From the NCBI GenBank assembly GCA_949358305.1, contig OX442320.1, positions 10,928,259 to 10,992,258 of the forward strand: a DNA stretch of 64,000 bases, in the 5' to 3' direction. The first letter of the stretch is position 1; each line of letters begins with the position of its first letter. Shown in pieces: positions 37,565-60,210 of this stretch. Source of the DNA: Strigamia acuminata (lineage: Eukaryota; Arthropoda; Chilopoda; Geophilomorpha; Linotaeniidae). Made by a program: the position numbers and the translations under genes. The notes beneath the pieces were generated by a model. It saw only the letters and a list, made by a program, of their open reading frames with translations. It ran no database searches and was not told the origin of the DNA.

Positions 37565-38133
37565 AATAAATTATCATTGTACACGAATAAATTGTGTATG
37601 AATAAATTATCATTGTACATGAATAAATTGTCATTGTGCATGATTAAATTGACATTGTGCATGAATAATTTGTCATTGTGCATTAATAAATTGTCATTGA
37701 GCATGAATAAATTGACATTGTGCATGAATAATTTGTTATTGTGCATGAATAAATTGTTATTGTGCATCAATAATTTATCATTGTGCATTAATAAATTGTC
37801 ATTGAGCATGAATAAATTGACATTGTGCATGAATAATTTGTTATTGTGCATGAATAAATTGTTATTGTGCATCAATAATTTATCATTGTGCATGAATAAA
37901 TTGTCATTGAGCATGAATAAATTGACATTGTGCATGAATAATTTGTTATTGTGCATGAATAAATTGTTATTGTGCATCAATAATTTATCATTGTGCATGA
38001 ATAAATTGTCATTGTGCATTAATAAATTGTCATTGAGCATGAATAAATTGACAATGTGCATGAATGATTTGTCATTGTGCATGAATAAATTGTCATTGAG
38101 CATGAATAAATTGTGCATGAATAAATTGTAGTG
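37565..38133. repeat. 21-bp satellite CATGAATAAATTGTCATTGTG with 105-bp higher order
   Basis: About 27 units of 21 bp lie here. A five-unit (105-bp) higher-order repeat is visible from GAGCATGAATAAATTGACAT at 37,699, 37,804 and 37,909. Because 21 is a multiple of three and the unit lacks stops, long ORFs appear on both strands (184 and 202 codons); these are artefacts. Confidence 0.92.
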
Positions 38134-38270
38134 AAATTTGTGCGGGAATTTCGTTTGACCACTCAATTTCGAGTGTTATTACAGAAATTACTAGAAAACA
38201 CTGGTGTACAAATTGTTCGTATTTGAACATTGAGATAACATATTTGAAATATAATATTACTATAATTCAA

Positions 38271-42654: not shown

Positions 42655-45600
42655 GATGATTAATGTGATCAAATCCAAAACTGAAAGTATCGACATCCCG
42701 AGGTAAAGGCCAATGTTTCCGGCTGCATCGATGATTAGATCGACAAATCCATAAGCAAATATTTCTTTGATGACTTCAATAACAGTTGATGCTGCTTCAT
42801 TTTCGTGTTCTGTCAACGGGGCATCTGATGTAGTAGATGTGTAGAATTTTATCTGGTTTTCTATTTGAGTGCACATTCGGTTGCACAAGCACTTTAATTC
42901 TGTGTTTAGTTTCCCTAGTTTTAGATGAATGCTAGTGTACAGTTCAACTGTATTAATGGAAGTATTGCATGTGTCGCCCGACTTTCCACTCATAAATGGC
43001 AATCTGAATAAACAATTATATTCAATTATATTAGTACTGTGTTTGTTCTCAAATTCATTTTAAATGGTTATTTCTGTGTGTAAAGTGATCCCTTACCTGC
43101 AAGGTTGTTGACTGAAAAAATCTTGAAGGCATTTCTCATGACATTTGATAAAATCCTTTTCGTCAATGCATGGATTATCAGATGTATTCAGAAATATAAA
43201 CTGTAATTACATACGTAAAAAAATAATCAAGATTTGCAATGTACCGTATACGCTGTACCACGAATCAAGGATTACATGGACATGTATCCATGTGTTATTT
43301 CCTTTTGATTCGTGGTTTTGTGTGTTGATTGGTAACTAAGGATGTTTGTTACTTGCATCCCAGAATACCGTGTGGCTATATATATTATATCGCGCCATTA
43401 ATGACAAAACACTCTGGACATGTTATCGTTAGTTCATGACTGTACTCTGTAGCCCGGACATAGGACGGATCCCAGGAAGTTGTCTGGATGTGAGATGGGA
43501 TGTTGCTTGTCGGGATGCTAAATCTGTTTTTTTTTTAACATTTTGACTATTTTTTCTAAGTTTTTACCTTTTCTGGTTGTTTCTTTTAACAAATATCATA
43601 AAGTGTATGTAATGTAACACCTTGGGGAAGATGGTAGGGCAATTAATCAAATGGTGATGGTAAATACCTTTTGTAAACTAAATTTCTTTCTTATTACTTC
43701 ATTTGAATTCACACCGATTGGTACATCAGATTTACCTGGAATAGGGCTTGACACCTGTAATTTTAATAAATTTTAATGTTTGAAATTTGCTTTTGTCATT
43801 GTAGTCAATATATTTACCAAAAGTGTGCCTGGGGGACAGAATTGTGGTCGATTGAACCACATTTTCAATTTGCCGTATAAATTTAGACCGGTAATATTTT
43901 CTAGAAAACACCAAATAACTCCGTAGTAGATGTTTATTGCAGTTAATGGTCGATCATAACTTACCAACCGTTATCACAGCGCAGTTTCCATATGTGGACA
44001 ATTCATTCCTTATTTTGATATTTGGTTTGTTCATTGATTTCTGTAAGAAGTCTGTTATTTTATATCTTAATTGCAAAAATGAATTGGGTTTTTCTTACCG
44101 AAATAAATTCAGTTTTGTTTATTACAGGATGATCAATATCCCATAATGCAGTCAAGTTGACATTTTCATTACGAACTAACCGGACTAGATTGTGCAGACA
44201 ATCATATGCATCTCTTGGTGTTGAGTGTAAAATATTTTTCCATGCGTATTGTTACGTGTGGGTTGGGGTGATCCACACACATAACAAATGCTAATTAATT
44301 TAGCAAAGACCTTGAAATCCTTTAGGTGAAATAATTGAGAGAACTGATTTATCATTTAAATAAATCTCTTTTATTCTATGGGACTTATTACAAACTTAAC
44401 AAAATCAAATGATAAACATAATCCTTTATTTTACATAAACATAAAGCAAGAAAGCAAGAATGATAATCAAATTATATCTCTATGAATTTGGAAAGGCGGG
44501 GTGGGACCAAGCGCTGTGTGCGCTGGTCCACAGAAGCCTTTACTTACCATGTTAACTGTTTGAGGCTCAGAACATTTCTGCCCTCTCAAACCCACTTAGC
44601 TCACCAGGTAAACTCTGGGTCCACCCCCGCTCTACTTGATTGATTAGTCCAGTTGCCCTGTGCATAATTAACACAGTGACAACTGGTGAGCGGATTTGGA
44701 AACTCCAGTGTGCCTAGTGAGAGCTTTCAGAATTAATTCTCTAAACAGAGCGTTTAGGCCCGCTGTCGTACAGCGAGGTCTGCGCTCGTAACAGCCCCCC
44801 CCTTTGAAAAATTTTGGTCTCCAAAATTCAAATTATTTCAAATGAAAATACCCCCAAATTTCTACTTCGAGATTATCATTTTCACTTCTAACTTTCAACA
44901 TCATTCTTGCTTTTCACAAAATTATTAACAGAATTTACGAGAATTGTTCTATTACCTTTATATCCCTCAATTCTTAGTTTAACAATACTTTTCTTGGAAA
45001 AGCCAATTACATAAAATTAAACTCTTCGTGTTTATTTATACACAAGAGAAAATCTAAAACAAAATTTTACACAAAATTATACCGATAACAATTGTAATTT
45101 CGATTTTTAATCTTCTTCGATTTCTTCAATTGTCACGTCCTCCTCGAAAGGTATTAGTTGATCTTTAATGATCTCCAACGCAATTCGGCTTCTTAAATCG
45201 TAAGGGAGCGCTGGAAGCATTAGGTCGCGGTCAACTAGATATCGGCGCACGAAATATAAGATGGTTGGGCCACAACTGTCCCCGTCCAGTTGGCCAATCG
45301 CCGGCGCTTCAAATGGGTGGAGTTGGTTGAGCTGGATGTTAAAACTCGCCAAACCATTTAACACAGCCTGCCATCTTATATCCTTCATCGTTAATGGGCC
45401 GCTTGGGTCGAACAGGGCCACCTCCGTCCTTGGGCGCGTAAAATCGACGATGGCCAGCTGCCAATGTTCGGGTATTCCCATCGGGATTACCCAAACCTTG
45501 TGAGTCGGTCTTGGATAAAATCCGTTCATTACAGCTCTTGCTTCATTATATTGCCGTCTGATCATGTACTGCACGGCAGCAGTTGGAAACGCGAAAACAC

Positions 45601-48600
45601 GTCGATAGGCCGGATCCGAAGTCACGATGTTTAGGTAATAATCGACAACCGAGTCGAAAACCCATGAATCCCGGCCCGGCATCAATCGCAGCAATGACGC
45701 CATTTCACCTGCTGTCACCACGATTTCCCGGTTTGGCGTCGTGAAGCATTCCATCCCCGAATTCACATCCGCAAATGTCGCGCTCCATTCTTGAATTTCC
45801 GTTTGCTGGCTCACCGTCAAGCCTACGCGATAAGTTCGCAAAGCCGACGGTAAGTCAACATCGGGATCGTTCCTGAATTTTCGCCTCATCAGCGCCTCCG
45901 CTCGCTGCTTTTTCTTTCGAATTTCTGCCTCCTTCAGCGCCAAATCCGTCTCCACACGCAACCACGCCGTGTAGCCGCTCCATCCCGGAGTTCCGGTCAA
46001 GTTCTTTTCCTTAGTTGCCGCCATGATGTTTTTTCGTTCCTGTCGAACTTCTCCTAATCGGCGTTCCTGCTGTTGTTTCGCTCGGACTTGCCTTTTTCTC
46101 ATGAATTTTAATCCCTTCTCCGACTCAAGAGCGATCTCCGTCCTTGCATCCAATCGTTTCGAAGCTTGCCGTCGATGACGTGAATTTCGTTTATGTTCGT
46201 ACTTCTTTAATTGGCGTGGCGTCATCATTGTTCGCTTATCCACTGTACCAACCGGAACTTTGTTTCGATCTGTAAATGGTCGCTCACACACAATTAAATC
46301 ATCAATTTCCCTAATCCTCGGCAACTGCTCAATTTCTTCGTCACGCAAGGGAAATTCGTTCTCTCGTCGGGTATACACTGTATGAAATATCTTCGATTCG
46401 TGCGACGCATTTGAATCCTCGTCCGAGTCACGCGCAATCTTCAAATTTTCCATTGCTGAAAAATTTTCTAAGTTAAAATCCAACTCAAAATTCAAACAAT
46501 TTCTAAGTCCAAATTCAATCCAAAATTCAACAGTTTAATTCACCTATCTCACTTTATCACTCGATCAGGTCGAGTTTGTTGGGTTGCAAACCCATTTTGA
46601 AGTGCTTAAATATTTGTTCCTGTGTTACGTGATTTATTGGTTACACAATTTCCGAGTATGTGTAACAAGTGTGTTGTAAATTAATGTCCCGATCCAGTGT
46701 TCAACCGATAATGATTTTTATCAATGCTTGTTATGTACCGCGGTTGAATATTCTCTCCTTTACAGCACACGTCCCTGATGTCGTCTGCTTGAAAAAGCGA
46801 TTTGTGTTTTATCCTTTTTCCTTGGTTTATCGATTATTAATGTCGGTGTTTTTTTACTTGCGATTGTAAAGGACAAATCATTGGAAACTTGACAATGATT
46901 TATCCTATGTTGTTAGAGAGTGCAAATAGCCTCTAACCGTGTATCACCTGATATTCTCACGAATAAAAGATGGCGCACGCATGTCGGTTTCGCGCACCGT
47001 TTCAACTGATGTTTCTTTTGATTTCGTTTGCAGAATTGCCGGGAATAACCTCACAAGTGGTAGCAGAGGCTGTGCGACGATAAGGCCAGCAGTTTTTGGG
47101 AGTTTTCCGGAACATTTCGAGACGAAACGAGTGCAGGACGTCGGCCGAGATCGTTGCAGACACGAATCGCCGGCGACGTGCGAAATAACTTCGCCAACTT
47201 TTTCAAATCGTCGGGATTGTGTGTGCGGACAGTACAACGGACTATTACGACAGTAAGCAGTGTCGAGATATTTATTTTCAGTGCGAAATAAGCACTTTTC
47301 CACGCCGTTACGAAGCAAATTTTCTTCGGCGGCCATTTTGGATTCGGCGGTGCAGCCGACGTAGCAACGACGTGTTTTCGGGCCGATACACGCCCAGACG
47401 CCAGCTTTTTGCCGAGACGACGATTATTCTCGCCGAAACAACGAGAATCAACGTCGATACGACGCATTTTCGCCCCGAATCAGGCGAAAATTACCGAAAA
47501 CGATCGGAAATCAGCAGTGGATCGCCGGTGGAGAACAAATCCTCACCAGCGGCCATTTTTGTTTGGATTTTCATCGCCGTCGACGGTGGAAACCAATTTC
47601 GAATGTCTCTGTACGCATAAGTCTGCGTACACGACAATATTTGACCGGAAAAGCCGTGTTTTGCACCCCGGAGTGCTACACGAAGGCGCGGACGGGCGCG
47701 ACGACGATTTTGGATCGTTTTTTCCCGCCTTGCACGGACGTGTGCGAGCGGTAGCGCGTCAGCCCCATTTCCGCGCACCGATAACGTCTAAACAACGTTC
47801 TACGTTGGACGGAAGCGATTGCGACGATCGGATCCCGCAATCCGCCCATCTTAACAACGCAAAAGTGTATTTACCATTTTGTCGTGAAACTCTGTTACAT
47901 TTAAGTTTTTGTTCGGGTTTCCCTCTTAGTATCGGTGCCACCCTACGTCCAGTCGGGCACGTGGCACTGTATTCTTGTCTGGGCTTGTTCACGGCCACCC
48001 AACCGATCCCGCGACCCCAGGTGGTCGGACGGAAGAGTTGGGGAACGACCAGTCAAGGTTTGCTCGCCGCTCTTATAGCGGTTTGCCCACGGGTGGAATT
48101 GTTTTTTCGCCTTCATTTTTGGTGGGTGACAAGTGTGCACTGTGTGATTTGTTTTGAGTGAAGTGTTTTGTGCGGAATAATTTCCGAATTTAGTGATTTT
48201 TCGTGCATCCTTCATTATTATTGTGCATTGTGTCGTCGTGATGTCAAAACACGACGACTATAAGGATATTAAAAAACTCGACGGCACGAACTATGCTACG
48301 TGGTCGGTGCAGGTCCAGCTGCTCCTCAAATACAACGGTGTTTGGGGCCACGTGGATGGTACGGAGAAAGAACCGCCTGACACCGCCACAGCAAAGGAGA
48401 AAAGGGACTTCAAAGTCCGAGAGGACAAAGCCATGTCAACCCTTTGCATGAGTTGCGCGGAACCTCAGCAAGTCATTGCCGTCTCTTGTCCCACTGCTGC
48501 AAAAGTCTGGGAAGCGTTAAAAGACGCTTATCAACCGACGACGAGGGCACGCCGCGCTCGACTGCGCCGTGACTTTTTGAACATGAAAATGTTAGAAGGC

Positions 48601-51600
48601 GAGGAAATGCTCGTTTTCACGGGGCGAGTCGATCGGAAGGTCACGGAATTAAAAGACGTGAAAATCGACGTCTCCGACGAGTTCCACGCTTTCCAGTATT
48701 TGGACCACTTACCCCCACAATATGAGAACATTAAACAGACAGCGTATCATTGGGAAGATGCTGAGTTCACGGCTAAAAACGTGAAAGAGAGGTTGCTTGG
48801 CGAATACAATCGCCTTTACGAATCAAGCAACGAATTCGGTGTCCTAACTCAACAAATGGACAATACTGCATTATTTGCCAAGCAAAAATGGAAACCACGT
48901 GGGAAACCTTCAACAGCTGCTGGGCCCTCACGGGGCACTTGTTTTAATTGTGGAGGGACGGGTCACTTCGCTAGAGAGTGCCCGTCGCCTCCAAAACAGC
49001 AAGGAGCTTTTGGGACTTTTCCTGCCGCTGCTGGTTCGCCGGCCCAATTAAATCGAGGAAGTGGACGTGGCAGGGGCCGTGGAAAAGGGCAACAGAGAGC
49101 AAATCTCACACAGCTGGACCCGTATGCGGATGAGCCCCACACTTTATACTCGGCAGTATTGGAGGAAAAACCTGCACAGCCATTATCCCTTGTGTCGCAC
49201 GGCAATTGTGATTCTCAATGGTACGTGGACACAGGGGCGACCGACCATTTCTCTTTCAACCGGAGTTGGTTCTCGGACTTTAGACCGCTGTCTAACTTCA
49301 GCGTACAACAAGGTGAAGGCAAATCGAAAATCGAAGGAGTCGGCAATGTTGTCATCACCACGCTTTATGGAACCCGACATAGGGACATTACTTTGAAGAA
49401 TGTTTTCTTCGCACCCAATTTTCGGAAGAATCTCATCTCACTTGGACGCACCGATGAGGCTGGGATGTGCACATTTGTCAAAAATGGGGAAATGTTTATT
49501 TATAAAGATAAGATCGAGGAACCATCGATTACGGCAGTTCGAACTTCGAATAGATTGTATAAAGTTAACTGTCGTATCGAGGTTGGGAATGTAAACACAG
49601 CTGCATTAACTGCGCAACAGAATGCGGCTGCTGTCCTCGACTTGATCAAATCATCTGTAAAGGATGAAAGATTTGTGCAACCGTTACTAACCATTTTAGA
49701 CTATAAGAACGCATTACTAAAAAGTTTGAGTAAGTCGGATAAAGGGACGTCCGCAGCTAATTTGAGTGCGCAAGTGAGCGAGAAAACGTCAGCGCCTGCG
49801 GCGATTAATTTGCCGAAAGCGGGGAATGAGGTTCAGACACCTCCTGTGAATATTCCCCAAGCTAATGCGACAGCGAAAGCTAACGGCGGAAACGCCGATG
49901 ATGTGAAAGTTAGAAACCAGGAGCGGCCCCAAACCATGGACACATGGCATTCGAGGATGGGCCATCTCAATGCTAAAGGCATTTCAAAATTAGAAAAGTC
50001 TGATGACGTATTTGGAATTAACCTGTCCACTAAGGAATTGTCTACCTGTGACGCATGTGCAACCGCCAAAAGCACGAGAGCAAGCTTTCCCCCTATAGTT
50101 GCGATTTCAACCAAAGGGATTTTAGACATTGTACACATGGATGTCTGGGGGAAATCACAGGGTCCTTCCTTAGGTGGGGCTAATTACTATTTTATTCTCG
50201 TGGACGACTATTCACGGTATATGTGGATAATTATGATGAAAACCAAAGGGGAGGTTTTGGGTCATTTCAAACGATGGCTAACTGAAGTGGAAAGAACGAC
50301 TTCTAAGAAAGTCAAATGTATTAAGACTGATAATGGCGGGGAATTTATTTCTCGGGATTGGGACACTTACGCTTCCAAGATAGGATTAAAATGCATTCGA
50401 ACAAATGCATATTCTCCGGAAATGAATTCCGTGGCTGAAAGGGCCAACCGTACAATTATTAGCGGGGTGAGGGCTTTGATGCTCGAGAACAGTTTCCCCT
50501 ATCCCCTTTGGGCTGAATTGGCGACTTCCATCGTCTACTTAAAGAATAGGTTTCCTCACCAGGGGATTGAAGGCAAAACACCTTACTCGATATTTTTCAA
50601 TAAGAAACTATCTTTACGACACATTAAATGCATTGGGTCGAAGACTTTTGTTCATGTTCCATCCCAGACTCGCAAAAGCAAATTGGAGGGTAGGGCATGG
50701 GCAGGAGCATTGGTTGGCTATGCCATCTCCACTAGGGGCTATAGGATCTGGGACCCTAAAACAAATCAAGTTTTTGCGTCAAAACACGTGCGGATCTTCG
50801 AGGACTCGTATTGGTACGAGATTGGGAAGAGATTACAGACTCCAGTTCGACAACCTCAAGGGGGATCCGAAGAATTTAAGAGTTTTGGCTACTCTTCCTC
50901 CGACACCGAGGAAGATGACGATGATTCCGTTGTCCCTGTTGGACAGCCACCACCCTTTATGCCACCTCCTATCCCACCGCCCATTCCGCCCCCTATTCCA
51001 CCTAGAACCCCAGGACCTGCTTTGAGACCAAATGTGCAGCGGACAATTGAGTTGCCTGCAATTGGAGTTGATCCTATTGGGGATGATGAGGAAATTGGTG
51101 GGGCGCAGGGTATTGATGGAGATAATCCAGTTGAAGAAATTGGTGGGGCGAAGGGGGATGATGAAAATTTCTTAAACGTTTATCCTGACGACGATGAGGA
51201 CCCAGATCTGGCACCCCCTCCTGGGGTACAAACTCGTCGTGGTTCGGGTAAAAAGGGAAAGGTGAAAGAGAAAGAAACCCCAGACCCAATGTTATTGCCG
51301 CTGGATATGACGAAATGGAGGAGAATCCAGTCTGTCCGGAAAGCCGGGGCAACGGCTGGAAAAGTTGACGTTGTTTATTTCTCGCCCAATGACGACAAGC
51401 TCAGAAGTCGAACTGATGTTGCACGGTGGTGCGATGGAGAAGGTTACGCATACGATCCGAACCTTTTCGACTTCAAAACGTTAGAAGGGGAGGAACCCTT
51501 ACCTTTTGCGGGGTTTTGTGCAGTTGAGCCCGACACCTACGAGGAGGCGATCGAGGGCATTAACAAACCCTACTGGGAAGGGGCCATGAAGGACGAGATA

Positions 51601-54600
51601 GACATTTTTGATGAACGAGAAGTCTATCGTGAAATTGACAAGCCTAAAGACGTACAGCTTTTGGGGACAAAATGGATATATAAGATGAAACGCGATCACA
51701 CCGGAGCAATTCAACGCTACCGGGCCCGATTGGTGGCCCAAGGGTTTAAACAGAGGCCCGGAATTGACTTTACGGAGGTATTTTCCCCCGTTGTCAATTT
51801 CGTCCTCGTTATCGTGTTCTTCTGCACTCTGGTAGTGCTTAAGGGCTGGCGTGACGTGCACATTGATATTAAGGCCGCCTACCTCTATGGCGACCTCGAT
51901 ACAGTGCAATATTGTGAAGTCCCCAAGGGTTACAGGACAGCGAAAAACCGACATAAGTGTTGGATGCTGCTGAAGGCCTTATATGGCCTTCATCAGAGCG
52001 GACGAATGTGGTACCAAGCGCTCCACGATTGTCTGCTCCAATTGGGATTTGAGCCAATGCTAGGACTGAACTGTGTCTATTCTCTGGACAACGAAGCAGT
52101 AATCATTTTCTACGTCGACGATATCGTACTCTTTTCAAGAGACGATTACGTCGAAAAATGCGTCCTGAAATGGATTCGCGGTTTCTTCGACATTGTTGAT
52201 TTGGGTCCGGTGACCCTATTGTTGGGCATCGAATTCGACAGATCCGGGGGGCGAATCCGTATTCACCAGAGAAAGTACATAGAAAAGCTGTGTAAGATGT
52301 ATGGAGTGGATCCGTGTCACCGTGTGCGAGTGCCAGTGACCCCTGGCACAATGATCCAGCAAGTTAAAGAGGGTGAACGGGTGAACACGGTATTTCCGTA
52401 CAGGAACTTGGTCGGGAGTCTCCTTTTTATTGCGAGCAGGACTAGGCCTGATATCCTCTTTTCGGTTATAGTCCTCTCGCAATACAATGAAAAACATTCG
52501 GCGCGTCATGTTGGAATGCTGATGCAGGTATTGCGATATTTAGGGAACACACCAAACTATGCCATCGATTTATCGAATTGTAGGAATGATTCCCTTACTG
52601 TCTACACTGACGCGTCTTTCGCCCTAGACCAAGACAAGAGAAGAAGCTTTGGGGGCCATATAGTGTACCTAGGGGGGGTTCCAATCTCATGGAACTGCCA
52701 TAAGCAGACAATGACCTCCCTGTCGATCATGGAGAGTGAATTTCTGGCCGTGGTCGATGGGGTGAAGGATATTATATGGCTTCACCGACTGTACGACGCA
52801 GACATTATGTTTTGTGTCGAACGCGCAACCCCGTGCGTATATGCCGACAGTATGCCGGCGATTCAGTATACGAAAAATAGAATAGAAAACCGCGCTAATA
52901 AACATATAGATGTCAAACTGCATTTCGTCCGTGACTGGTTCGAAAAAGGAACGTTTTCTATTAGACACATTGCCGGGGTTCTGAACGTGGCAGATATTTT
53001 AACCAAATGGTTAGCGAAACCAAGGTTAAACACTCTTTGCGAACACATTTTTGTTATGGACAAATAGTTTAAGCAAAGGGGGATTTGTTGGGTTGCAAAC
53101 CCATTTTGAAGTGCTTAAATATTTGTTCCTGTGTTACGTGATTTATTGGTTACACAATTTCCGAGTATGTGTAACAAGTGTGTTGTAAATTAATGTCCCG
53201 ATCCAGTGTTCAACCGATAATGATTTTTATCAATGCTTGTTATGTACCGCGGTTGAATATTCTCTCCTTTACAGCACACGTCCCTGATGTCGTCTGCTTG
53301 AAAAAGCGATTTGTGTTTTATCCTTTTTCCTTGGTTTATCGATTATTAATGTCGGTGTTTTTTTACTTGCGATTGTAAAGGACAAATCATTGGAAACTTG
53401 ACAATGATTTATCCTATGTTGTTAGAGAGTGCAAATAGCCTCTAACCGTGTATCACCTGATATTCTCACGAATAAAAGATGGCGCACGCATGTCGGTTTC
53501 GCGCACCGTTTCAACTGATGTTTCTTTTGATTTCGTTTGCAGAATTGCCGGGAATAACCTCACAGAGTTTACGGTAAGACGGGTTCAGTAGAACTGACGA
53601 TAATTCGTCCGTGCTCGCGGTCTTAAATGCTTAAAACGGAAGTCACGTGTTTCGTCGACGACGCCCTCTGGTGGCAATTTCCGCGAACGCTGTCCTGACG
53701 TTTTTCTTTTATCGCCATCTAGTGGCAATTTCGTCAAACGTTTCTCCGACGTTTCGTCTTTATCGCCGACCAGCGGCAATTCTTTCAACCGTTTTCCCGT
53801 CGTCTCCTCCGGTTCGAACAACGACTTTAAAGAAATCTGATCTTCATCACTTATGAATCTTTCTGTGCATGGTTTTTTTGATTGTTTTAGTGATTTTTTA
53901 GTGTTAATTCTAACTTCTTCAATTCCTTTACTTTCCATCAACTTAGTTTTGTTAGAATTTTCCGCCTTCACCTCAGTTTCACTATTCCTATCCATAATTA
54001 TGGATACTTCTTTCCTTGGCTTGTAAGGTTTTAACCTTTCTACATTTACAATGTCTGATTTTTTACCAGTTGAATCTACTATTTGGTAATCGTTTGGTGC
54101 AGTTCGGCGCACTATTTCGTAAGGACCAGAATATTGTGGCAGTAATTTCTCACTGAGTCCAACCTTTCTGTTCGGTTTTTTCAAATAAACGTATTCTCCA
54201 GGCTCGAACTCCACAACCTTTCTGTTCTTATCAAATCTTTCTTTGCTTTTAGCTGACATCTGCTCCAGTCTCTGGTTTGAGATTCTCCTTGCTGCCTCGA
54301 TGAATTTGGCAGTTCTCAAAGTGAATTCCTTCTTCGGGAGATTCAGATTCACATCGACGTTAACATCTGCTTCATACCCCCTTAATAAAAAGTATGGGGT
54401 ATATCCAGTTGTCTCGTGAACCGACGTGTTGTACGAGAATAACAGGTGTGGCAGGAAATCATCCCAGTCCGTATGATCTTCATTTACGTAGTTCAGAAGC
54501 ATTTTCGCAAGTGTTGCGTTAAAACGCTCCGTTAAACCGTTTGTCCTGGCATGATATCCGCTAGTTGTTTTATGTTTTGATTTATAGAGTCTCGAGACCT

Positions 54601-57600
54601 CCTCCATCAATTCATTTCTGTATTCTGTACCACGGTCAGTCAGAATTTCCCTTGGAGATCCTTCTTTCACCATTATCTCATAAACTAAAGCATCCGCTGC
54701 TGCAATGGCCGTGCAAGTTGGTGACGCTCTCGCACAGACCGCTCTAGATAGATAGTCCGTCATAACAAACACATAATTATTCCCTTTCTTTGAAGTCGGG
54801 AATTTTCCTAAAGTGTCCATTCCTACTCTTTGGAATGGTCTGGTCACGGTTGTCCAGGGCTGCAATAATCCTTTTGGTGGTGTGGTATCTGTTTTTGCTG
54901 CAGCGCACTTCTTGCAGGACAAGACGTAGTCTCTGACCTCTGCATAAATTCTGGGCCAATGGAATCTGGTGCTTATTCTTTTCCAAGTTTTCGACAGGCC
55001 CAGATGAGCTCCTGGAAGGCCATCATGCATCTCGTGCAGAACATCTTGCTGTAAGTGTTTTGGCACAACCAGCAGTAACCTTTCGTTGCCCAGGAAATTC
55101 TTCCTTCTGAACAAAACTTCATCCTGGAGCACGAACTGTTGTAAAGATCGTCTCTTCTTTTTCGAAAGGCGCTCAATATCTCGAAGTGCATCAACGTATT
55201 CCTTCAGCTTCTGATCCTTTCGCTGCTCGGCAGGTAGGTCCAGATTTTCCAGTAGCAACAAAGGTAAATCAATTATTTCTTCTTCGCCCACTGCCTCAGG
55301 AATACGACTTAACGCATCTGCATCTTGATGTTTTTTACCACTCTTGTGAATGACCTCATAGTCATAGTCCACCAATTGGAGTGACCATCTGGTGAGTCGT
55401 CCGTTGGGATTTCTCACAGTTTTGAGCCACTGCAACGCTGAATGGTCCGTAATAACGTAGAATTTTTGGCCATACAAGTAAGGTCGGAACTTTTGTATGC
55501 CAAAGATGATCGCAAGGCACTCACGTTCTGTCGTATCATAATTCTGCTCTGCTTTGCTAAGCAGTCGGCTAGCGTAGGCTACGACATGTTCTTGTTTATT
55601 TATCTTTTGTTTCAGCACAACTCCTAATCCATATGCACTGGCGTCAGTAGAGATCATAAAGGGCTCGCTGAAATTTGGATGAGCCAGCACTGGAACTGTC
55701 GTTAGGGCCGTCTTCAGCTTCTGGAACGCTTCATCGTGTGGCGGTCCCCAATCATACTTTTCTTCTTTCTTTGTCAGATTTACAAGGCACTTGGACACGT
55801 CTGAAAAACCACGAATAAATTTGCGATAATAAGAACATAATCCAAGAAATCCTTGCAACTGCTTTACTGTTGTTGGTTTTGGGAACTTCGCCACGGACTC
55901 CAAATTACGTGGATCCGGTGAAACTCCTTTTGCATTGATGACGTGTCCCAAATACTTAATGGTATCCGTTCCAAAAGTGCATTTACTTAATTTGACCTTT
56001 AAATTCGCCGTGCGCAATTTCGAAAAGACGTTGTCTAAATCAACCAAATGCTGGTCGAATGTCTTTGAAAAGATGATCAGATCGTCCAAGTAGGCTATAC
56101 ACACTTTTCCTAGGAGGTTACCAAGCACTTTGTTCATGAGCTTTTGGAATGCCGCAGGACTATTACACAAGCCCTGGCCCAGTACATTAAATTCGTAATG
56201 ACCGGAAGACGTTGTGAACGCAGTCTTTTCCTTATCCTCCTCATCAATCTCGACTTGGAAATATCCCTGGATTAAATCCATCATGGAAAAATACTTCGCA
56301 CCTGACAGTTGGTCTAAGGTGTCGTCGATTCGGGGGAGTGGGTAAACCATCTTCTTAGTCACTGCATTCAGCCGCCTCCAATCAACACAAAACCGCCATT
56401 TGCCATCACGTCTCTTAATTAAAAGCACTGGCGCACTCCATGGACTCTCGGACTCTCTGATTACATCCATTTCAAGCAGTTTCTGGGTTTCCTCTGCTTC
56501 GACTTCTTTCTCTTTCATGGATCGGCGATATGGCTGCAGGTGAATTGGCTGTGCATCACCTGTGTCTATTTTATGCTTGTAGACCTTTACTCTGCCTAAA
56601 TCCTGATCTGAAGTGGCAAATCTATCTTCATTCTTACGCAGTAGGCTCTTCAGCTGCTCCTTTTGGTTTGTATCCAGTAGATCACTTGACACGGCGGAAT
56701 CAAAGTTCAAGCCATTAGGTGGCTGCTCCTCAAAACTACCAATGTCAATGACGTGGTATGCCTTGGCAATCGCTGTTCCTTTCTGCAGATAAACCGCCTT
56801 CTTCGTCGGATTCGCAACTCGCATTATGCCTGATCCATCCTTAAATGTAGTTAGAGTTTTACAGCCAATTACTCCCAATCTATCAGTCAAATTGGATAAT
56901 GGCTCTGCAAACAAATCTTCATTAGTTTTATTATTGTTCACTCCAATGAAAAGCATGCATTCGTGCATTGCTGGAATTTTTATTGATTTAGTAAGTCTGC
57001 CAATAAATGTTTGTTCCAGATAATTTCTTGACATTGGAAAAACTTCCGGTTTAAATCCTTCACTTTTTCGCCCCACAAAGACCTTCCGTCGGTCATAGTC
57101 CAACACACACCCTGCTTGTTTGAGGAAAGGATCACCTAGTAAGAGCTCATGACCAAATCCCCGCACTACTAATACCTCCATGCTGTAGTCCAATCTTCCA
57201 ATAGTGACTGTAATTTTCCCAATTCCTTCAGGAGATATTAAGGAGTTATCAATTACCCTCAATTTGATATAAGGGCAAAGCCGACGTGACAGTTGCAATC
57301 TATCAGCCAGTTCCTCACTTATAATATTTCTATATCCACCTGAATCCAATACACCTTTGACTTCTAAATTGTTCACTACGACAGGTATTGTCAGCATTTC
57401 TTCAGTGGTGTTAATGTCAACTATTTCCAACTTCCTTCTCATTCTTCTTCTCCTACGCCTACTTTTTAACTGTCTTTGTGGCACTACTAGTTTCCCCGGT
57501 TCTGTTGTTTTTGATTCCCAGGTGGATTTCTTGCTTGGTTATTACCGCTGTTATTGTTAGCAGGACCATTTCCTTGGTTACTGTTATTTTCTTCATTATT

Positions 57601-60210
57601 CTTATTATTATAACGCCAAGTATCACGCCTCTTCCCACCGCCACCTCTGTTTTGTGACGCACAGCAGGTGCAGTTGGGCTGATGGAAACATCCGGGTCCA
57701 GTTTGCTGCTGCTGAAAATTCTGCCAGTTCTGCGGAGAACTTTGCTGGAATTGCTGCTGCTTCTGCTGGGTTCCTTGGAAAAATTTTCCTCCTTGACGCT
57801 GATTGTTGACTGGGGTAAACCAAGTCCCTTGATGGAAAATTGGAGAGATCGTCTCTTGCAATACGCCATTCTGCAAAAACATATTCTGTTCTTTTAGAAA
57901 GTTGTTTTCTGCTACAAGTTCTGCGAGCGACTTTGGGGCTTCTGCCACTCCAGTCAAATAAGTTGACGGTGCGACGGTCGCCTTGTCAGCCACAAGTTTC
58001 TGTACAAGGGTCAGTAAAGCTGTCGACGGATCTTCCTTCACTCCATGGGCTTCATAAAGCTGAACTCTTTCCATCAAATCATCCATAGCTGTAGGAAAAA
58101 CTGTCATCAACCTGTCTTTTATCGGCTGTTTCATAGCCTGATAGACATAGTTGATTTTCTGGGTTTCACTGAGGGCTGGTCTGGCAAATGAACACAAGTG
58201 GAGAACTTTCTTAATAAAGTCAATGGCTGTCCCTTCTTCATGCTTAAGAGCGTGTAGGGTATTGAGGACGTGCTCGGGCCTACGGCGGAATTTTTTCTGC
58301 AATGCTGCTTTCCATTCGTCCCAAGCCCAGCTAGGGTTAGCTTGTAGCTGCTCGACGTACCAGGAGAGCGCATCTTCCTTCATTACAATCGGCAGATGCT
58401 TGGCACGTTCCGTATCCGTAGCAACAATCGCTTCATAACCAACAATCCATTCGTCAATGTTCCCCGTTCTGGTATCATAATTGACTGGATTGCGCTTTTG
58501 CACTACTAGTCCTTTTAATAGGGTTTCCAACGTTGCAGTTGAGCTAGTCGCCATCTTGACTTCTTCTAGAGGTTCACTATCCTCTGGTTCTATCTCACTA
58601 TCCAAATGTTCATCAGACTTGAATTCTGTTGTTAATGTGTAGTGTCGCTCTCTGTCTTTCGCAATTATACTTGATGATTTCTTGCGAAATGTTATATTTG
58701 AAGGATCCAGCTTCAATATGGATCCACTCCAACCATAGAAGGCACACACTCACAAAACACAAATTCACCTCACCTGTGAAACACTAATCACTAAAACACT
58801 TTCACCATGCTAAGGAGAAAAGAAAATAATTCATAATATTATTACTTATAACTGTGCATGAGTTAAAATTGTTTTAAAACTATTTACAATTCTTAAAATT
58901 ATTCAAAATATGTATAACCTTAAAATGATTTATCATTAAAACTAGGCTTTAATTCTAAAATACTGTTTAATTGTTTTCAACTAATTAAATATTCAGTAAC
59001 ATGCAAACTCATTTAACATTCATGCTCAGTTTCAACTCAAACACTTAAATATTCAACACTTTTACACAAGATAATTAAATATTCAACATTTTCACACAAA
59101 ACAATTAAATATTCATTCCCAATTCTCAATTTTCACACTAAAATTGATTTTCACAAGTCTCTTTATTTGCTTTCAAATCTGATAATATTATAGGCAATTT
59201 GCTTTCTCAACCTTACTCATTTTCAGGGACAAATTTTCAACTATTTTACTCAAAATTCCAGATTTTTACTAACATTTTAGCTCTTAAATAAAGCAATTAT
59301 ACAGGGTCTTTTAATTCCGCATCTCCACCACTTTGTTACGTGTGGGTTGGGGTGATCCACACACATAACAAATGCTAATTAATTTAGCAAAGACCTTGAA
59401 ATCCTTTAGGTGAAATAATTGAGAGAACTGATTTATCATTTAAATAAATCTCTTTTATTCTATGGGACTTATTACAAACTTAACAAAATCAAATGATAAA
59501 CATAATCCTTTATTTTACATAAACATAAAGCAAGAAAGCAAGAATGATAATCAAATTATATCTCTATGAATTTGGAAAGGCGGGGTGGGACCAAGCGCTG
59601 TGTGCGCTGGTCCACAGAAGCCTTTACTTACCATGTTAACTGTTTGAGGCTCAGAACATTTCTGCCCTCTCAAACCCACTTAGCTCACCAGGTAAACTCT
59701 GGGTCCACCCCCGCTCTACTTGATTGATTAGTCCAGTTGCCCTGTGCATAATTAACACAGTGACAACTGGTGAGCGGATTTGGAAACTCCAGTGTGCCTA
59801 GTGAGAGCTTTCAGAATTAATTCTCTAAACAGAGCGTTTAGGCCCGCTGTCGTACAGCGAGGTCTGCGCTCGTAACAGTATCGTGCGTATTCGGTTTCAG
59901 GCGTGCATACTTTGAAAGCTGGGAATGACATCTCCGTTTCATCAATCGTGTACGCGTCAGTAGCGATGGGGTTTGAAAAGAAATATTTGATTTTCTGCCC
60001 AGTTTGATAGCAGCAGAGTGCGAGACAGATCATCAAAAGTAAACTCCAAACAAATTTGATTTTAGCGCTTTTCATAGGATCAATTAATGTTTGAACTTCA
60101 GGAAATGATTCCTCGAAAATCCAAAGTTGTGTCATTTGTTGTTGTACAATTTTACGGATTTTAGACTTTACCGCAGCTGCAACAGCATTCCTTCTCATTA
60201 CAATCCTCAT
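38997..60210 (-). CDS. DEG/ENaC channel with two complete subunits fused in one frame; exon 1 split by a retrotransposon
   Basis: Eleven minus-strand exons: 60,210-59,878 plus 44,245-44,099 (one exon interrupted by the gypsy element and a GTAT duplication), then 44,040-43,965, 43,900-43,818, 43,754-43,668, 43,200-43,097, 43,003-42,180, 42,112-42,065, 41,405-41,320, 41,258-41,154, 39,967-39,861 and 39,363-38,997. Disregarding the insertion and one GTAT copy, their lengths sum to 2,367 bases, an exact 788 codons plus stop. Unit 1 and unit 2 each have a cytoplasmic N-terminus, TM1, short cysteine-rich ectodomain and TM2 with the GMS selectivity motif. The exon phases are parallel (0 or 1, 1, 0, 0, 2). 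As sequenced, translation would run into the LTR and stop at 59,752. Members of this family form trimeric sodium channels at the plasma membrane. Confidence 0.8.
39515..39572. repeat. 19-bp direct repeat CATCAACAAACACCAGA
   Basis: Three units with a 19-bp period lie in a DEG/ENaC intron, near a G-rich stretch (39,600-39,720). Confidence 0.8.
42655..44040 (-). CDS. DEG/ENaC unit 1, exons 2-5 and first half of exon 6
   Basis: Exons 44,040-43,965, 43,900-43,818, 43,754-43,668 and 43,200-43,097, then exon 6 from 43,003. Landmarks: YGNCAVITV, GKLKMWFNRPQFC, SSPIPGKSD, a Cys-rich NPCIDEKDFIKCHEKC, CLCNRMC, and TM2 with GLYLGMSILSVLDL (42,711-42,655). No stop codon follows TM2. Confidence 0.82.
44099..44249 (-). 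CDS. DEG/ENaC unit 1, exon 1, 3' part
   Basis: It resumes the reading frame directly after the insertion (AWKNILHSTPRDAYDCL...) and ends at a GTAAGA donor after EFIS. GTAT at 44,246-44,249 is the left copy of the target duplication. Confidence 0.85.
44250..44793 (-). repeat. gypsy 3' LTR (left)
   Basis: 544 bp, TGTTAC...GTAACA, matching 59,334-59,877 throughout as far as I can read. Confidence 0.94.
44794..44807 (-). other. gypsy polypurine tract
   Basis: Minus-strand AAAGGGGGGGGC ends exactly at the 3' LTR. Confidence 0.82.
44808..45106 (-). other. gypsy 3' noncoding region
   Basis: About 300 bases of AT-rich sequence between the protease ORF stop and the purine tract; nothing recognised. 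Confidence 0.6.
45107..46453 (-). CDS. gypsy third ORF: Ulp1/SENP-like (clan CE, C48-type) cysteine protease, 448 aa
   Basis: ATG at 46,453 lies two bases after TTTTTCAG, a good splice acceptor, suggesting expression from a spliced subgenomic RNA as env genes are. The N-terminal half is acidic, then strongly basic and probably coiled coil (about residues 90-165). The C-terminal domain has the Ulp1 order of catalytic residues: His330 (EHWQLAIVDF), Asp349 (ALFDPSG), Gln388 and Cys394 in QLDGDSCGP, with the Q-x5-C spacing of yeast Ulp1. A Trp follows the His as in that family. The enzyme would cleave SUMO- or ubiquitin-like conjugates, or act on the element's own proteins; the target is unknown. 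No membrane segment or envelope feature is seen. Confidence 0.85.
   Translation of the reverse strand: MENLKIARDSDEDSNASHESKIFHTVYTRRENEFPLRDEEIEQLPRIREIDDLIVCERPFTDRNKVPVGTVDKRTMMTPRQLKKYEHKRNSRHRRQASKRLDARTEIALESEKGLKFMRKRQVRAKQQQERRLGEVRQERKNIMAATKEKNLTGTPGWSGYTAWLRVETDLALKEAEIRKKKQRAEALMRRKFRNDPDVDLPSALRTYRVGLTVSQQTEIQEWSATFADVNSGMECFTTPNREIVVTAGEMASLLRLMPGRDSWVFDSVVDYYLNIVTSDPAYRRVFAFPTAAVQYMIRRQYNEARAVMNGFYPRPTHKVWVIPMGIPEHWQLAIVDFTRPRTEVALFDPSGPLTMKDIRWQAVLNGLASFNIQLNQLHPFEAPAIGQLDGDSCGPTILYFVRRYLVDRDLMLPALPYDLRSRIALEIIKDQLIPFEEDVTIEEIEED
46577..47055 (+). repeat. copia-2 5' LTR
   Basis: 479 bp, repeated at 53,086-53,564. A 66-codon ORF occurs in both LTRs and is not a gene. Confidence 0.94.
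47058..47069 (+). other. copia-2 primer-binding site, initiator tRNA-Met
   Basis: TGGTAGCAGAGG lies two bases after the 5' LTR and is complementary to the last 12 bases of animal initiator tRNA-Met, as in copia-1 but shorter. Confidence 0.85.
47070..48240 (+). other. copia-2 long leader
   Basis: About 1.2 kb between primer site and gag start. It is rich in CG dinucleotides and has overlapping short ORFs but no recognised protein. Candidate packaging/IRES region by position only. Confidence 0.55.
48241..53067 (+). CDS. copia-2 Gag-Pol polyprotein, 1,608 aa
   Basis: Start at ATG 48,241 (MSKHDDYKDIKKLDG); the open frame extends upstream only through non-ATG codons. Domains by residue: gag about 1-220; CCHC knuckle CFNCGGTGHFAREC at 234-247; aspartic protease DTGA with Asp330; pre-integrase from His570; integrase catalytic Asp634, Asp697, Glu733; reverse transcriptase YVDD at 1291-1294; RNase H Asp1457 in TDASF. 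A proline-rich spacer (PPPIPPPIPP) and acidic stretch lie between integrase and RT. No internal stops. All catalytic residues are present, so it looks autonomous. Confidence 0.95.
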   Translation: MSKHDDYKDIKKLDGTNYATWSVQVQLLLKYNGVWGHVDGTEKEPPDTATAKEKRDFKVREDKAMSTLCMSCAEPQQVIAVSCPTAAKVWEALKDAYQPTTRARRARLRRDFLNMKMLEGEEMLVFTGRVDRKVTELKDVKIDVSDEFHAFQYLDHLPPQYENIKQTAYHWEDAEFTAKNVKERLLGEYNRLYESSNEFGVLTQQMDNTALFAKQKWKPRGKPSTAAGPSRGTCFNCGGTGHFARECPSPPKQQGAFGTFPAAAGSPAQLNRGSGRGRGRGKGQQRANLTQLDPYADEPHTLYSAVLEEKPAQPLSLVSHGNCDSQWYVDTGATDHFSFNRSWFSDFRPLSNFSVQQGEGKSKIEGVGNVVITTLYGTRHRDITLKNVFFAPNFRKNLISLGRTDEAGMCTFVKNGEMFIYKDKIEEPSITAVRTSNRLYKVNCRIEVGNVNTAALTAQQNAAAVLDLIKSSVKDERFVQPLLTILDYKNALLKSLSKSDKGTSAANLSAQVSEKTSAPAAINLPKAGNEVQTPPVNIPQANATAKANGGNADDVKVRNQERPQTMDTWHSRMGHLNAKGISKLEKSDDVFGINLSTKELSTCDACATAKSTRASFPPIVAISTKGILDIVHMDVWGKSQGPSLGGANYYFILVDDYSRYMWIIMMKTKGEVLGHFKRWLTEVERTTSKKVKCIKTDNGGEFISRDWDTYASKIGLKCIRTNAYSPEMNSVAERANRTIISGVRALMLENSFPYPLWAELATSIVYLKNRFPHQGIEGKTPYSIFFNKKLSLRHIKCIGSKTFVHVPSQTRKSKLEGRAWAGALVGYAISTRGYRIWDPKTNQVFASKHVRIFEDSYWYEIGKRLQTPVRQPQGGSEEFKSFGYSSSDTEEDDDDSVVPVGQPPPFMPPPIPPPIPPPIPPRTPGPALRPNVQRTIELPAIGVDPIGDDEEIGGAQGIDGDNPVEEIGGAKGDDENFLNVYPDDDEDPDLAPPPGVQTRRGSGKKGKVKEKETPDPMLLPLDMTKWRRIQSVRKAGATAGKVDVVYFSPNDDKLRSRTDVARWCDGEGYAYDPNLFDFKTLEGEEPLPFAGFCAVEPDTYEEAIEGINKPYWEGAMKDEIDIFDEREVYREIDKPKDVQLLGTKWIYKMKRDHTGAIQRYRARLVAQGFKQRPGIDFTEVFSPVVNFVLVIVFFCTLVVLKGWRDVHIDIKAAYLYGDLDTVQYCEVPKGYRTAKNRHKCWMLLKALYGLHQSGRMWYQALHDCLLQLGFEPMLGLNCVYSLDNEAVIIFYVDDIVLFSRDDYVEKCVLKWIRGFFDIVDLGPVTLLLGIEFDRSGGRIRIHQRKYIEKLCKMYGVDPCHRVRVPVTPGTMIQQVKEGERVNTVFPYRNLVGSLLFIASRTRPDILFSVIVLSQYNEKHSARHVGMLMQVLRYLGNTPNYAIDLSNCRNDSLTVYTDASFALDQDKRRSFGGHIVYLGGVPISWNCHKQTMTSLSIMESEFLAVVDGVKDIIWLHRLYDADIMFCVERATPCVYADSMPAIQYTKNRIENRANKHIDVKLHFVRDWFEKGTFSIRHIAGVLNVADILTKWLAKPRLNTLCEHIFVMDK
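53072..53085 (+). other. copia-2 polypurine tract
   Basis: AGCAAAGGGGGATT abuts the 3' LTR. Confidence 0.82.
53086..53564 (+). repeat. copia-2 3' LTR
   Basis: 479 bp partner of 46,577-47,055, directly preceded by the purine tract. Confidence 0.94.
53585..57490 (-). CDS. pol: gypsy Pol: protease, RT, RNase H, integrase, about 1,300 aa
   Basis: The open frame has no suitable ATG near its start (the first codon after the overlap is GTG), consistent with entry by frameshift. Order: aspartic protease with VLDSGGYRN (57,338-57,346), reverse transcriptase with YLDD (56,081-56,092), RNase H (STDASAYG), integrase HHCC zinc finger (HEMHDGLPGAHLG, CKKC), DDE core (GMDTLG, LTDRGTEY, GLTERFN), then a GPY/F-like region (LPQYSGPYEIV). 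RT before integrase makes it Ty3/gypsy. The tail has three diverged repeats of a KRLxxLPLxGDK motif. No stops occur until TGA at 53,585. Confidence 0.93.
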   Translation of the reverse strand, partial: LVVPQRQLKSRRRRRRMRRKLEIVDINTTEEMLTIPVVVNNLEVKGVLDSGGYRNIISEELADRLQLSRRLCPYIKLRVIDNSLISPEGIGKITVTIGRLDYSMEVLVVRGFGHELLLGDPFLKQAGCVLDYDRRKVFVGRKSEGFKPEVFPMSRNYLEQTFIGRLTKSIKIPAMHECMLFIGVNNNKTNEDLFAEPLSNLTDRLGVIGCKTLTTFKDGSGIMRVANPTKKAVYLQKGTAIAKAYHVIDIGSFEEQPPNGLNFDSAVSSDLLDTNQKEQLKSLLRKNEDRFATSDQDLGRVKVYKHKIDTGDAQPIHLQPYRRSMKEKEVEAEETQKLLEMDVIRESESPWSAPVLLIKRRDGKWRFCVDWRRLNAVTKKMVYPLPRIDDTLDQLSGAKYFSMMDLIQGYFQVEIDEEDKEKTAFTTSSGHYEFNVLGQGLCNSPAAFQKLMNKVLGNLLGKVCIAYLDDLIIFSKTFDQHLVDLDNVFSKLRTANLKVKLSKCTFGTDTIKYLGHVINAKGVSPDPRNLESVAKFPKPTTVKQLQGFLGLCSYYRKFIRGFSDVSKCLVNLTKKEEKYDWGPPHDEAFQKLKTALTTVPVLAHPNFSEPFMISTDASAYGLGVVLKQKINKQEHVVAYASRLLSKAEQNYDTTERECLAIIFGIQKFRPYLYGQKFYVITDHSALQWLKTVRNPNGRLTRWSLQLVDYDYEVIHKSGKKHQDADALSRIPEAVGEEEIIDLPLLLLENLDLPAEQRKDQKLKEYVDALRDIERLSKKKRRSLQQFVLQDEVLFRRKNFLGNERLLLVVPKHLQQDVLHEMHDGLPGAHLGLSKTWKRISTRFHWPRIYAEVRDYVLSCKKCAAAKTDTTPPKGLLQPWTTVTRPFQRVGMDTLGKFPTSKKGNNYVFVMTDYLSRAVCARASPTCTAIAAADALVYEIMVKEGSPREILTDRGTEYRNELMEEVSRLYKSKHKTTSGYHARTNGLTERFNATLAKMLLNYVNEDHTDWDDFLPHLLFSYNTSVHETTGYTPYFLLRGYEADVNVDVNLNLPKKEFTLRTAKFIEAARRISNQRLEQMSAKSKERFDKNRKVVEFEPGEYVYLKKPNRKVGLSEKLLPQYSGPYEIVRRTAPNDYQIVDSTGKKSDIVNVERLKPYKPRKEVSIIMDRNSETEVKAENSNKTKLMESKGIEEVRINTKKSLKQSKKPCTERFISDEDQISLKSLFEPEETTGKRLKELPLVGDKDETSEKRLTKLPLDGDKRKTSGQRSRKLPPEGVVDETRDFRFKHLRPRARTNYRQFY
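57484..57496 (-). promoter_or_regulatory. -1 ribosomal frameshift site GGGAAAC before TAG TAG
   Basis: In the gag frame the minus strand reads CGG GGA AAC TAG TAG, that is G GGA AAC, a canonical X XXY YYZ heptamer (57,496-57,490). The pol frame is the -1 frame and is open through this point. The last sense codons of gag sit in the slippery site itself. Confidence 0.8.
57487..58554 (-). CDS. gag: gypsy Gag, 355 aa
   Basis: Capsid/nucleocapsid protein. The start chosen is the ATG at 58,554 (AAGATGG context; the open frame continues upstream to 58,749 without an ATG). A retrotransposon-gag core is seen (DALSWYVEQL, W..WKAALQKKFRR, L..LKHEEGTAIDFIKKV). The C-terminus is rich in Gln, Asn, Gly and Arg with a cysteine cluster (CFHQPNCTCC) in place of a clear CCHC knuckle. 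It ends in two consecutive TAG codons right after a slippery heptamer. Confidence 0.88.
   Translation of the reverse strand: MATSSTATLETLLKGLVVQKRNPVNYDTRTGNIDEWIVGYEAIVATDTERAKHLPIVMKEDALSWYVEQLQANPSWAWDEWKAALQKKFRRRPEHVLNTLHALKHEEGTAIDFIKKVLHLCSFARPALSETQKINYVYQAMKQPIKDRLMTVFPTAMDDLMERVQLYEAHGVKEDPSTALLTLVQKLVADKATVAPSTYLTGVAEAPKSLAELVAENNFLKEQNMFLQNGVLQETISPIFHQGTWFTPVNNQRQGGKFFQGTQQKQQQFQQSSPQNWQNFQQQQTGPGCFHQPNCTCCASQNRGGGGKRRDTWRYNNKNNEENNSNQGNGPANNNSGNNQARNPPGNQKQQNRGN
58555..59315 (-). other. gypsy leader region
   Basis: About 760 bases between primer-binding site and gag ATG. AT-rich with AATTAAATATTCA repeats (about 58,985-59,115). The place where a splice donor for the third ORF would be expected; I could not single one out. 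Confidence 0.55.
59316..59330 (-). other. gypsy primer-binding site, probably tRNA-Ala
   Basis: Minus-strand TGGTGGAGATGCGGA begins three bases after the 5' LTR. Its complement TCCGCATCTCCACCA resembles the 3' end of a tRNA-Ala (acceptor CATCTCC, A discriminator, CCA). The position is firm; the tRNA identity is from memory of the family. Confidence 0.7.
59334..59877 (-). repeat. gypsy 5' LTR (right)
   Basis: 544 bp, partner of 44,250-44,793, abutting the GTAT duplication in the DEG/ENaC exon. Confidence 0.94.
59878..60210 (-). CDS. DEG/ENaC unit 1, exon 1, 5' part
   Basis: ATG at 60,208-60,210. It encodes a basic cytoplasmic N-terminus, an LWIFEESFPEV segment, TM1 (FVWSLLLMICLALCC) and the start of the ectodomain with the family signature FPAFKVCTPE. 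The frame breaks at the GTAT duplication (59,878-59,881), where the gypsy LTR begins. Confidence 0.88.

Follow-up and report, generated by a model that had tools for sequence, protein, structure and literature searches.

Ulp1 domains are known from several kinds of mobile DNA. They occur in Ginger1 and Mutator-like DNA transposons (PMC2836005), and an Ulp1-like cysteine protease is part of the nematode NeSL and Utopia-1_TSP non-LTR retrotransposons (PMC4640811); as far as the excerpts of these two papers go, the roles of the transposon-borne domains are given as proposals. At the level of titles and abstract beginnings, with subscription papers and Repbase outside the scope, a literature search showed no long terminal repeat (LTR) retrotransposon with a gene for Ulp1, a SUMO protease or a peptidase of family C48. 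Here we describe a gene of this kind in a Ty3/gypsy retrotransposon of the chilopod Strigamia acuminata. The element resides on the minus strand at positions 44250 to 59877 of a 64,000-nucleotide stretch of contig OX442320.1 (contig positions 10,928,259 to 10,992,258), hereafter termed the window, and the gene is its third open reading frame (ORF3), located behind pol. An earlier reading of the window from its letters, the original prediction, had named Mutator-like elements and Utopia as precedents and knew of no animal LTR element with an Ulp1 domain. The precedents are confirmed by the excerpts cited, and the literature search agrees with the second statement.

ORF3 occupies positions 45107..46453 of the minus strand, the strand of pol, and encodes 448 amino acids followed by a stop codon. 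The original prediction had placed the frame exactly here, and its catalytic order His-Asp-Gln-Cys, the Q-x5-C spacing and the residue numbers H330, D349, Q388 and C394 proved equally exact. The catalytic domain comprises approximately residues 250-448 (45107..45706, minus strand), and profile positions 253-441 match SENP1. From stop to stop the open frame spans 475 codons, as compared with a maximum of 207 in 5000 shuffles of the interval; in the same test the longest open frame on the antisense strand was 99 codons at most. A loose HW..D..Q-x5-C pattern appeared in six of 100,000 shuffles of the ORF3 protein. Together with the SENP profile match, the shuffles and the length of the frame rule out a chance motif as the source of the catalytic pattern. 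Neither does ORF3 belong to a host gene or to the Copia element that is nested in the gypsy element: it is framed by the gypsy LTRs, does not overlap the Copia and is found again in other copies. By synonymous codon usage, ORF3 could not be assigned to the gypsy pol in preference to the Copia.

The enzyme family was settled by a profile built from five ORF3 sequences of four element families (alignment A2). When compared with the PDB, this profile matched SENP1 best (E=2.3e-11, 46 bits), followed by SENP5 (7.1e-08), SENP3 (5.4e-06), SENP2 (7.6e-06), XopD (3.2e-05) and yeast Ulp1 (5.7e-04). The top 17 of the 22 matches were C48 proteins, the first match outside the family had an E value of 0.094, and none of the 22 chains bears the name of a NEDD8 or ubiquitin protease. 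Because of the SENP1 match and the C48 identity of the 17 leading matches, the sequence profile shows ORF3 to be a peptidase of family C48 (SENP/Ulp1 type), as originally claimed. Residues H330, D349, Q388 and C394, for which a conservation check had been suggested, are invariant in all five ORFs, and so are W264, W331 and the motif QLD-x-DSCGP. For three of the four catalytic residues (D349, Q388 and C394) synonymous codons differ between the families. W264 and W331 align with tryptophans of SENP1 in the profile match, and the tryptophan residues of SENP1 clamp the di-Gly tail.

The other families were found by searching the genome with an integrase profile. We considered the best 150 of 462 candidates, the lowest of which scored 39.6 bits; since the window's own pol reaches 32.1 bits, families like that of the window are absent from this list. 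The 3.6 kb 3' of the integrase end were taken at 16 of the 150 places, which were picked to span different pol lengths. Two scans were made, one with a length floor of 120 for ORFs and the other with a floor of 100 for listed ORFs and with tblastn in all frames. Judged by C-terminal sequence, 12 of the 16 loci fall into the window's pol clade. An intact ORF3 of 462-466 codons from stop to stop is present in four of these 12 (L064, L066, L069 and L078, the last of the same family as L064, with a pol of the 1327-residue class), so that three other families of the same genome carry a homologous ORF3 at the same place and on the same strand after pol. The ORFs of these three families matched the window's ORF3 with 172-238 bits in phmmer searches. 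Six further clade loci (L068, L074-L077 and L079) retain a C-terminal remnant, and in the remaining two (L065 and L067) nothing was detected at E<=1e-3 by tblastn in all frames. In other gypsy clades, none of the four sampled copies (L070-L073) has an ORF3. At L068, positions 1735-3600 in element orientation, 3' of the gypsy pol, hold an ORF that by eye resembles part of a BEL/Pao polyprotein.

Divergence between the families is considerable. C-terminal pol fragments are 40-53% identical among the four ORF3-bearing families and 40-47% identical to that of the window, while ORF3 sequences are 31-40% identical between families and 31-35% identical to the window's. Across families the core is better conserved (34-45%) than the first 200 residues (26-35%). 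Summed pairwise identities group L064 with L066 and the window with L069 for both ORF3 and pol, an agreement expected by chance in one of three cases. Between families, synonymous sites of ORF3 are saturated (pS 0.73-0.87, pN 0.44-0.50). In the only close pair compared, L064 and L078, dN is 0.002 and dS 0.025 (dN/dS ~0.1), with six synonymous changes as against three changes in two non-synonymous codons (Fisher p=0.0036). A check for purifying selection, proposed along with the original prediction, thus gave a low dN/dS in this pair and no answer for the window's own family, whose copies are too alike for a selection test. The sequences are best read as an old third gene common to a Ty3/gypsy clade of this genome.

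To characterize the window's own family, the genome (237.5 Mb) was searched with the LTR, and the best 40 of 116 LTR candidates were scored. These comprise at least 19 LTR pairs, the window's included, and two single LTRs. At 20 of the 40 matches, i.e., the 18 other pairs and the two singles, the 3' ends were taken; that of the window was already known. The count of 19 copies leaves out L050, a solo LTR with no interior beside L040, and L051, a 5' LTR paired with L043. LTR spacing is ~8.08-8.10 kb in seven of the 19 (the window counted without its Copia) and 6.8-7.0 kb in the other 12. A full ORF3 is kept in seven copies, that is the window and six of the 18 others, with 99.9-100% nucleotide identity. 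The catalytic core is gone in 12 of the 19, all of which retain the C-terminal end of ORF3, and in all 12 pol is open across the 653-690 codons fetched. One of them, L052, has an internal deletion of its own. The other 11 (L053-L063) are alike: a short stretch, most commonly of the form MMDEQ...TIDKRVGMTSRQ, is followed by the ORF3 C-terminus (YDLRSR...EEIEED). Twelve residues of the short stretch match residues 70-81 of the window's ORF3 (TIDKRVGMTSRQ compared with TVDKRTMMTPRQ), and one of 2000 shuffles did as well. Against the ORF3s of other families the same 12 residues matched no better than chance, and the rest of the stretch could not be aligned. Where open, the small frame that stands in the place of ORF3 in L053-L063 has 65 codons; it is open to the ORF3 stop in seven of the 11 and may itself be a gene.

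Because all 12 core-less copies keep the C-terminus and the commonest form of the short stretch retains the N-terminal match, they point to loss rather than original absence. In our reading, the 11 similar copies hold a diverged ORF3 that was shortened in frame by a deletion; ORF3 would then be ancestral to both subfamilies and its core lost at least twice. Since 12 of 19 copies have lost the core, ORF3 is not needed in cis. Absence of the ORF from other family members had been named as an outcome that would speak against an element gene; the core is indeed missing from the majority of copies, but the gene is intact in seven and its C-terminal end persists in the rest. The claim of an element gene instead of a one-off capture held: ORF3 lies inside the LTRs, is intact in six of 18 other copies and has homologues in three other families.

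How ORF3 might be expressed is suggested by its upstream sequence. Directly 5' of the ATG lies a splice-acceptor-like sequence, AATTTTTCAG/CA (46454..46465, minus strand), and the leader contains a donor-like CAG/GTGA (58770..58776, minus strand; slashes mark the putative splice points). Of the 15 loci for which leader sequence was available, 14, the window among them, have this donor in the exact form CACAG/GTGAGG. The 60 nucleotides 5' of the ORF3 ATG in the other families contain T-rich stretches and an AG, namely TTAG in L064 and L078, AAG behind a run of T in L066 and CAG 46 nucleotides upstream in L069. With these candidate sites it is a reasonable inference that ORF3 is probably translated from a spliced subgenomic mRNA. 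The env gene of errantiviruses is expressed from such an mRNA. In ORF3 itself, no hydrophobic or transmembrane-like segment was found, the highest hydropathy over 19 residues being 0.91; as a C48 protein free of such a segment, it is not a membrane-anchored env.

Residues 80-200 of ORF3 (45854..46216, minus strand) form a basic region with 36 K+R as compared with 17 D+E and with the basic runs RKRQVR, RKKKQR and RRKFR. Of the basic coiled coil claimed for the N-terminus, the basic character is thus borne out, and helix is seen only in a single-sequence structure model of low confidence. Nuclear targeting or nucleic-acid binding is a possible function of the region, and its composition and predicted helices would suit a nuclear or nucleic-acid-bound protein.

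The source of the gene was sought in the same genome, which contains at least 29 C48 matches. Ten of these loci (L001-L005 and L009-L013) were compared with the ORF3 profile, translated stretches of up to 60 residues being left out. The best score was 18.6 bits (L011), and a locus in which the C48 domain is joined to a Mutator-like element (MULE) transposase and a PHD finger reached 5.3 bits. As SENP1 scores 46 bits, an old SENP1-like host gene is more likely to have been captured than a local MULE; recent capture from a MULE-Ulp1 or another C48 locus of this genome was rejected among the ten on the same scores. Derivation from a nearby host gene, which had been named as a possible refutation, found no counterpart either, as no close host or MULE gene was among them. 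MULE transposase, Ulp1 (C48) and PHD are joined in one 1075-residue frame at three places covered by L006-L009 and at three more on contigs C9, C56 and C1; all six score the same, and Pfam was run on one. Large C48 ORFs of 665-1828 residues were also noticed at L010 (C1:22.25 Mb, with a PHD finger), L011 (C3:5.88 Mb) and C1:33.64 Mb. Pfam found no transposase or reverse transcriptase (RT) in the two scanned, and these ORFs possibly represent another mobile element.

Outside this genome, protein databases yielded no relative of ORF3 at E<=0.001 or at E<=10 in searches that reach only relatives sharing short exact words. Scans of viral contigs with ORF3, pol and alignments of either provided no useful relative, nor was there a useful result from bacterial and archaeal genome contigs (pol alignment), phage records (pol), NCBIfam or PHROGs.

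On balance, we favour the view that ORF3 is a third gene encoding a C48 protease, probably made from a spliced mRNA, which would act in the nucleus and in trans as a deSUMOylase that weakens silencing. It would occupy the place that env holds in errantiviruses and would free host factors that mediate silencing of SUMO, or of another modifier of the di-Gly type, thereby permitting transcription of the element. In 12 of the 19 copies the core is lost and pol is open, which fits a product that acts in trans: deletion copies without the protease core but with pol have spread beside full copies, as expected if the enzyme is shared. More tentatively, and with rather less confidence, we propose a gypsy clade with an anti-silencing nuclear deSUMOylase in the env slot whose trans-acting product has been exploited repeatedly by protease-less deletion copies. 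Protease family, catalytic residues, position, conservation in four families and the losses are direct observations; the SUMO substrate, the nuclear site, splicing and the effect on silencing are inferred. Studies on other organisms make such an effect plausible. In yeast, reduced SUMOylation (ubc9, siz1 siz2, mutant or untethered Ulp1) raises Ty1 RNA, according to the portion of PMC8585004 available, and in mouse cells the SUMOylated form of KAP1 binds SETDB1, a silencer of endogenous retroviruses, according to that of PMC4303303. By analogy, if an LTR element supplies a free nuclear deSUMOylase, one would expect SUMO-dependent silencing to be loosened. If so, ORF3 suggests that elements interfere with the silencing of the cell. 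Very recent copies in the window's family make its role directly testable against SUMO-dependent silencing, and full and protease-less copies together offer a natural test of whether cheaters can exploit an accessory gene of a transposon as a shared good.

Several points weigh against this reading. The family assignment leans on the combined profile: with Pfam, the full-length ORF3 of the window had no match, its domain alone hit Peptidase_C48 under the cut-off (E=0.21), and two of the five single aligned ORF3s matched C48, at best with a non-significant E value of 0.077. When the PDB was searched with the ORF3 domain by phmmer, XopD (E=0.005) and SENP1 (E=0.025) appeared and ten of 11 matches were C48, which is suggestive only. 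The Pfam search proposed in the original prediction was therefore negative for the single sequence, and it was the four-family profile that placed ORF3 in C48. Structure prediction, proposed alongside, was too poor to help (mean pLDDT 42 and 36 in two single-sequence models); the order of helices and strands in these models would fit the clan CE fold. Eight of the 12 sampled loci from the rest of the clade have no catalytic core, and this, like the losses in the window's family, fits a trans-acting product but a dispensable gene too. Evidence for selection comes from the single pair L064/L078, and all four ORF3 families are from one genome, with no relative elsewhere in the searches made. Activity, localisation and RNA of ORF3 are predicted from sequence. 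C48 enzymes can act on NEDD8 or ubiquitin too, so that SUMO is not proven for ORF3. Finally, loss of Ulp1 itself raised Ty1 RNA in yeast, so that the direction of the effect hinges on the site of the enzyme (PMC8585004, as excerpted).

The alternative closest to a deSUMOylase is removal of ubiquitin or NEDD8 instead of SUMO, by which ORF3 would stabilise proteins of the element or block ubiquitin-based restriction. The modifier is not fixed by the sequence, and Ulp1-like enzymes that prefer deubiquitylation exist (PMC7214410, in the part consulted). We nevertheless regard this as improbable, given that, among relatives of known structure, SUMO proteases come nearest, with SENP1 in first place, and that no ubiquitin or NEDD8 protease is named among the 22 PDB matches. 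Less probable still is processing of the element's own Gag or Gag-Pol or maturation of its particles. In adenoviruses, poxviruses and Polintons, clan CE proteases serve in such processing or maturation, and Gag contains a few GG sites (residue 320 and residues 369-372). However, pol retains an aspartic protease domain of its own, and the sole GG in pol is found in the D-S-G-G of that protease, which disfavours self-processing and led us to reject cleavage at GG sites. Moreover, ORF3 contains no GG, the core-less copies have amplified, and the best PDB matches are SENPs. Of the two functions offered with the original prediction, deSUMOylation of host repressors and processing of the element's own proteins, the former is thus the one that the sequence favours. 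A mainly structural or nucleic-acid-binding accessory, i.e., a basic coiled coil with the protease fold kept for other reasons, finds some support in the very basic and, at 26-35% identity, conserved N-terminal half; it is very unlikely in view of invariant catalytic residues and a core that is better conserved than this half. That ORF3 is a one-off captured passenger devoid of function for the element hardly deserves credence and is already contradicted, for despite the 12 core-less family copies and the clade loci with a remnant only (six of 12) or nothing at E<=1e-3 (two of 12), intact homologues persist at the same position in four families, whose ORF3s share 31-40% identity and have saturated synonymous sites, and one pair has a low dN/dS.

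In the gypsy element that carries ORF3, the 3' LTR (44250..44793, TGTTACG...CGTAACA) and 5' LTR (59334..59877) are direct repeats of 544 nucleotides on the minus strand with zero mismatches. A 4-bp target site duplication, GTAT, flanks the element on both sides (44246..44249 on the left and 59878-59881 on the right), and with these identical LTRs the element is young. The polypurine tract AAAGGGGGGGGC adjoins the 3' LTR (44794..44805, minus strand). The primer binding site TGGTGGAGATGCGG (59317..59330, minus strand), a string present in all 15 loci with leader sequence, presumably matches tRNA-Ala. On the same strand, the gag frame (57487..58749, first in-frame ATG at 58554) is similar to Ty3_capsid (Pfam PF19259, E=5.4e-06, just under the curated cut-off), and pol (53585..57484) comprises aspartic protease, RT, RNase H and integrase domains (Integrase_p58_C) according to Pfam. 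Pol lies in the -1 frame behind gag, and directly 5' of the gag stop is a heptamer, G GGA AAC (57490..57496, minus strand), which we take to be a slippery site as it matches the consensus. The order of protease, RT, RNase H and integrase, TG..CA LTRs, the short target site duplication, the primer binding site and the polypurine tract together identify a Ty3/gypsy element. Between pol and ORF3, a complete Copia, which the original prediction had not mentioned, is inserted on the plus strand (46577..53564, LTRs 46577-47055 and 53086-53564, target site duplication GAGTT) that is not part of the system; when it is discounted, the pol stop and the ORF3 ATG are 138 nucleotides apart. Joining the flanks of the gypsy element yields an uninterrupted DEG/ENaC-type frame, with an ASC domain in the flanking ORF, and the element therefore seems to have landed inside a coding exon of an ion channel.

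Two further features of the window were noted. In the Copia polyproteins at 48193-53067 (plus strand) and 15474-20573 (minus strand), Pfam places a methyl-CpG-binding domain (MBD) between integrase and RT, with E values of 4.5e-10 (above the cut-off) and 0.0027 (below it). This MBD is a possible chromatin-targeting module, and no published report of it in Copia polyproteins was found among the best 15 of 387 literature matches. At 37486-38240, a 21-nucleotide unit forms a tandem array in which ~200 codons are open on both strands.

Compared with known systems, the element is closest by pol to other Ty3/gypsy elements. Among the best 120 of 4787 matches, one relative (P0012) is 54% identical to the window's Pol, and the named proteins are mostly from Cordylochernes (32-55%), also from ticks and spiders and a few from other phyla; judged by their protein records, they have a protease-RT-RNase H-integrase pol of the same kind. 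With errantiviruses, the element shares a third ORF behind pol on the same strand and possibly a spliced subgenomic mRNA. The ORF, however, encodes a protease with no transmembrane-like stretch, and no membrane-anchored env was found in it. SENP1 and Ulp1 share with ORF3 the His-Asp-Gln-Cys order, Q-x5-C, the HW and upstream W..D motifs and a colinear catalytic domain, whereas ORF3 is encoded by an LTR retrotransposon, has a basic N-terminus of its own and is too diverged for significance in single-sequence Pfam searches. Ginger1 and MULEs with Ulp1 are likewise mobile elements with a C48 domain, and PHD-bearing MULEs of this kind are present in the same genome. They are DNA transposons, with the domain in the transposase itself in the case of Ginger1 as far as the excerpt goes, and the MULE domain of this genome resembles ORF3 only weakly (5.3 bits compared with 46 for SENP1). 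Having LTRs and pol in place of terminal inverted repeats and a DDE transposase, the window's element is no member of that group. NeSL and Utopia-1_TSP are, by their descriptions in the excerpt, retrotransposons with an Ulp1-like cysteine protease, but they have no LTRs and carry the domain at the N-terminus of the RT-bearing protein; the window's element, in which the RT is accompanied by RNase H and integrase and LTRs are present, is thereby set apart from non-LTR elements with a restriction-like endonuclease. As for the genome, an exact match to nematode SL1 was not found, and contig C1 starts with TTAGG telomere repeats. In the present elements, by comparison, the C48 domain forms a separate and conserved gene of LTR retrotransposons.

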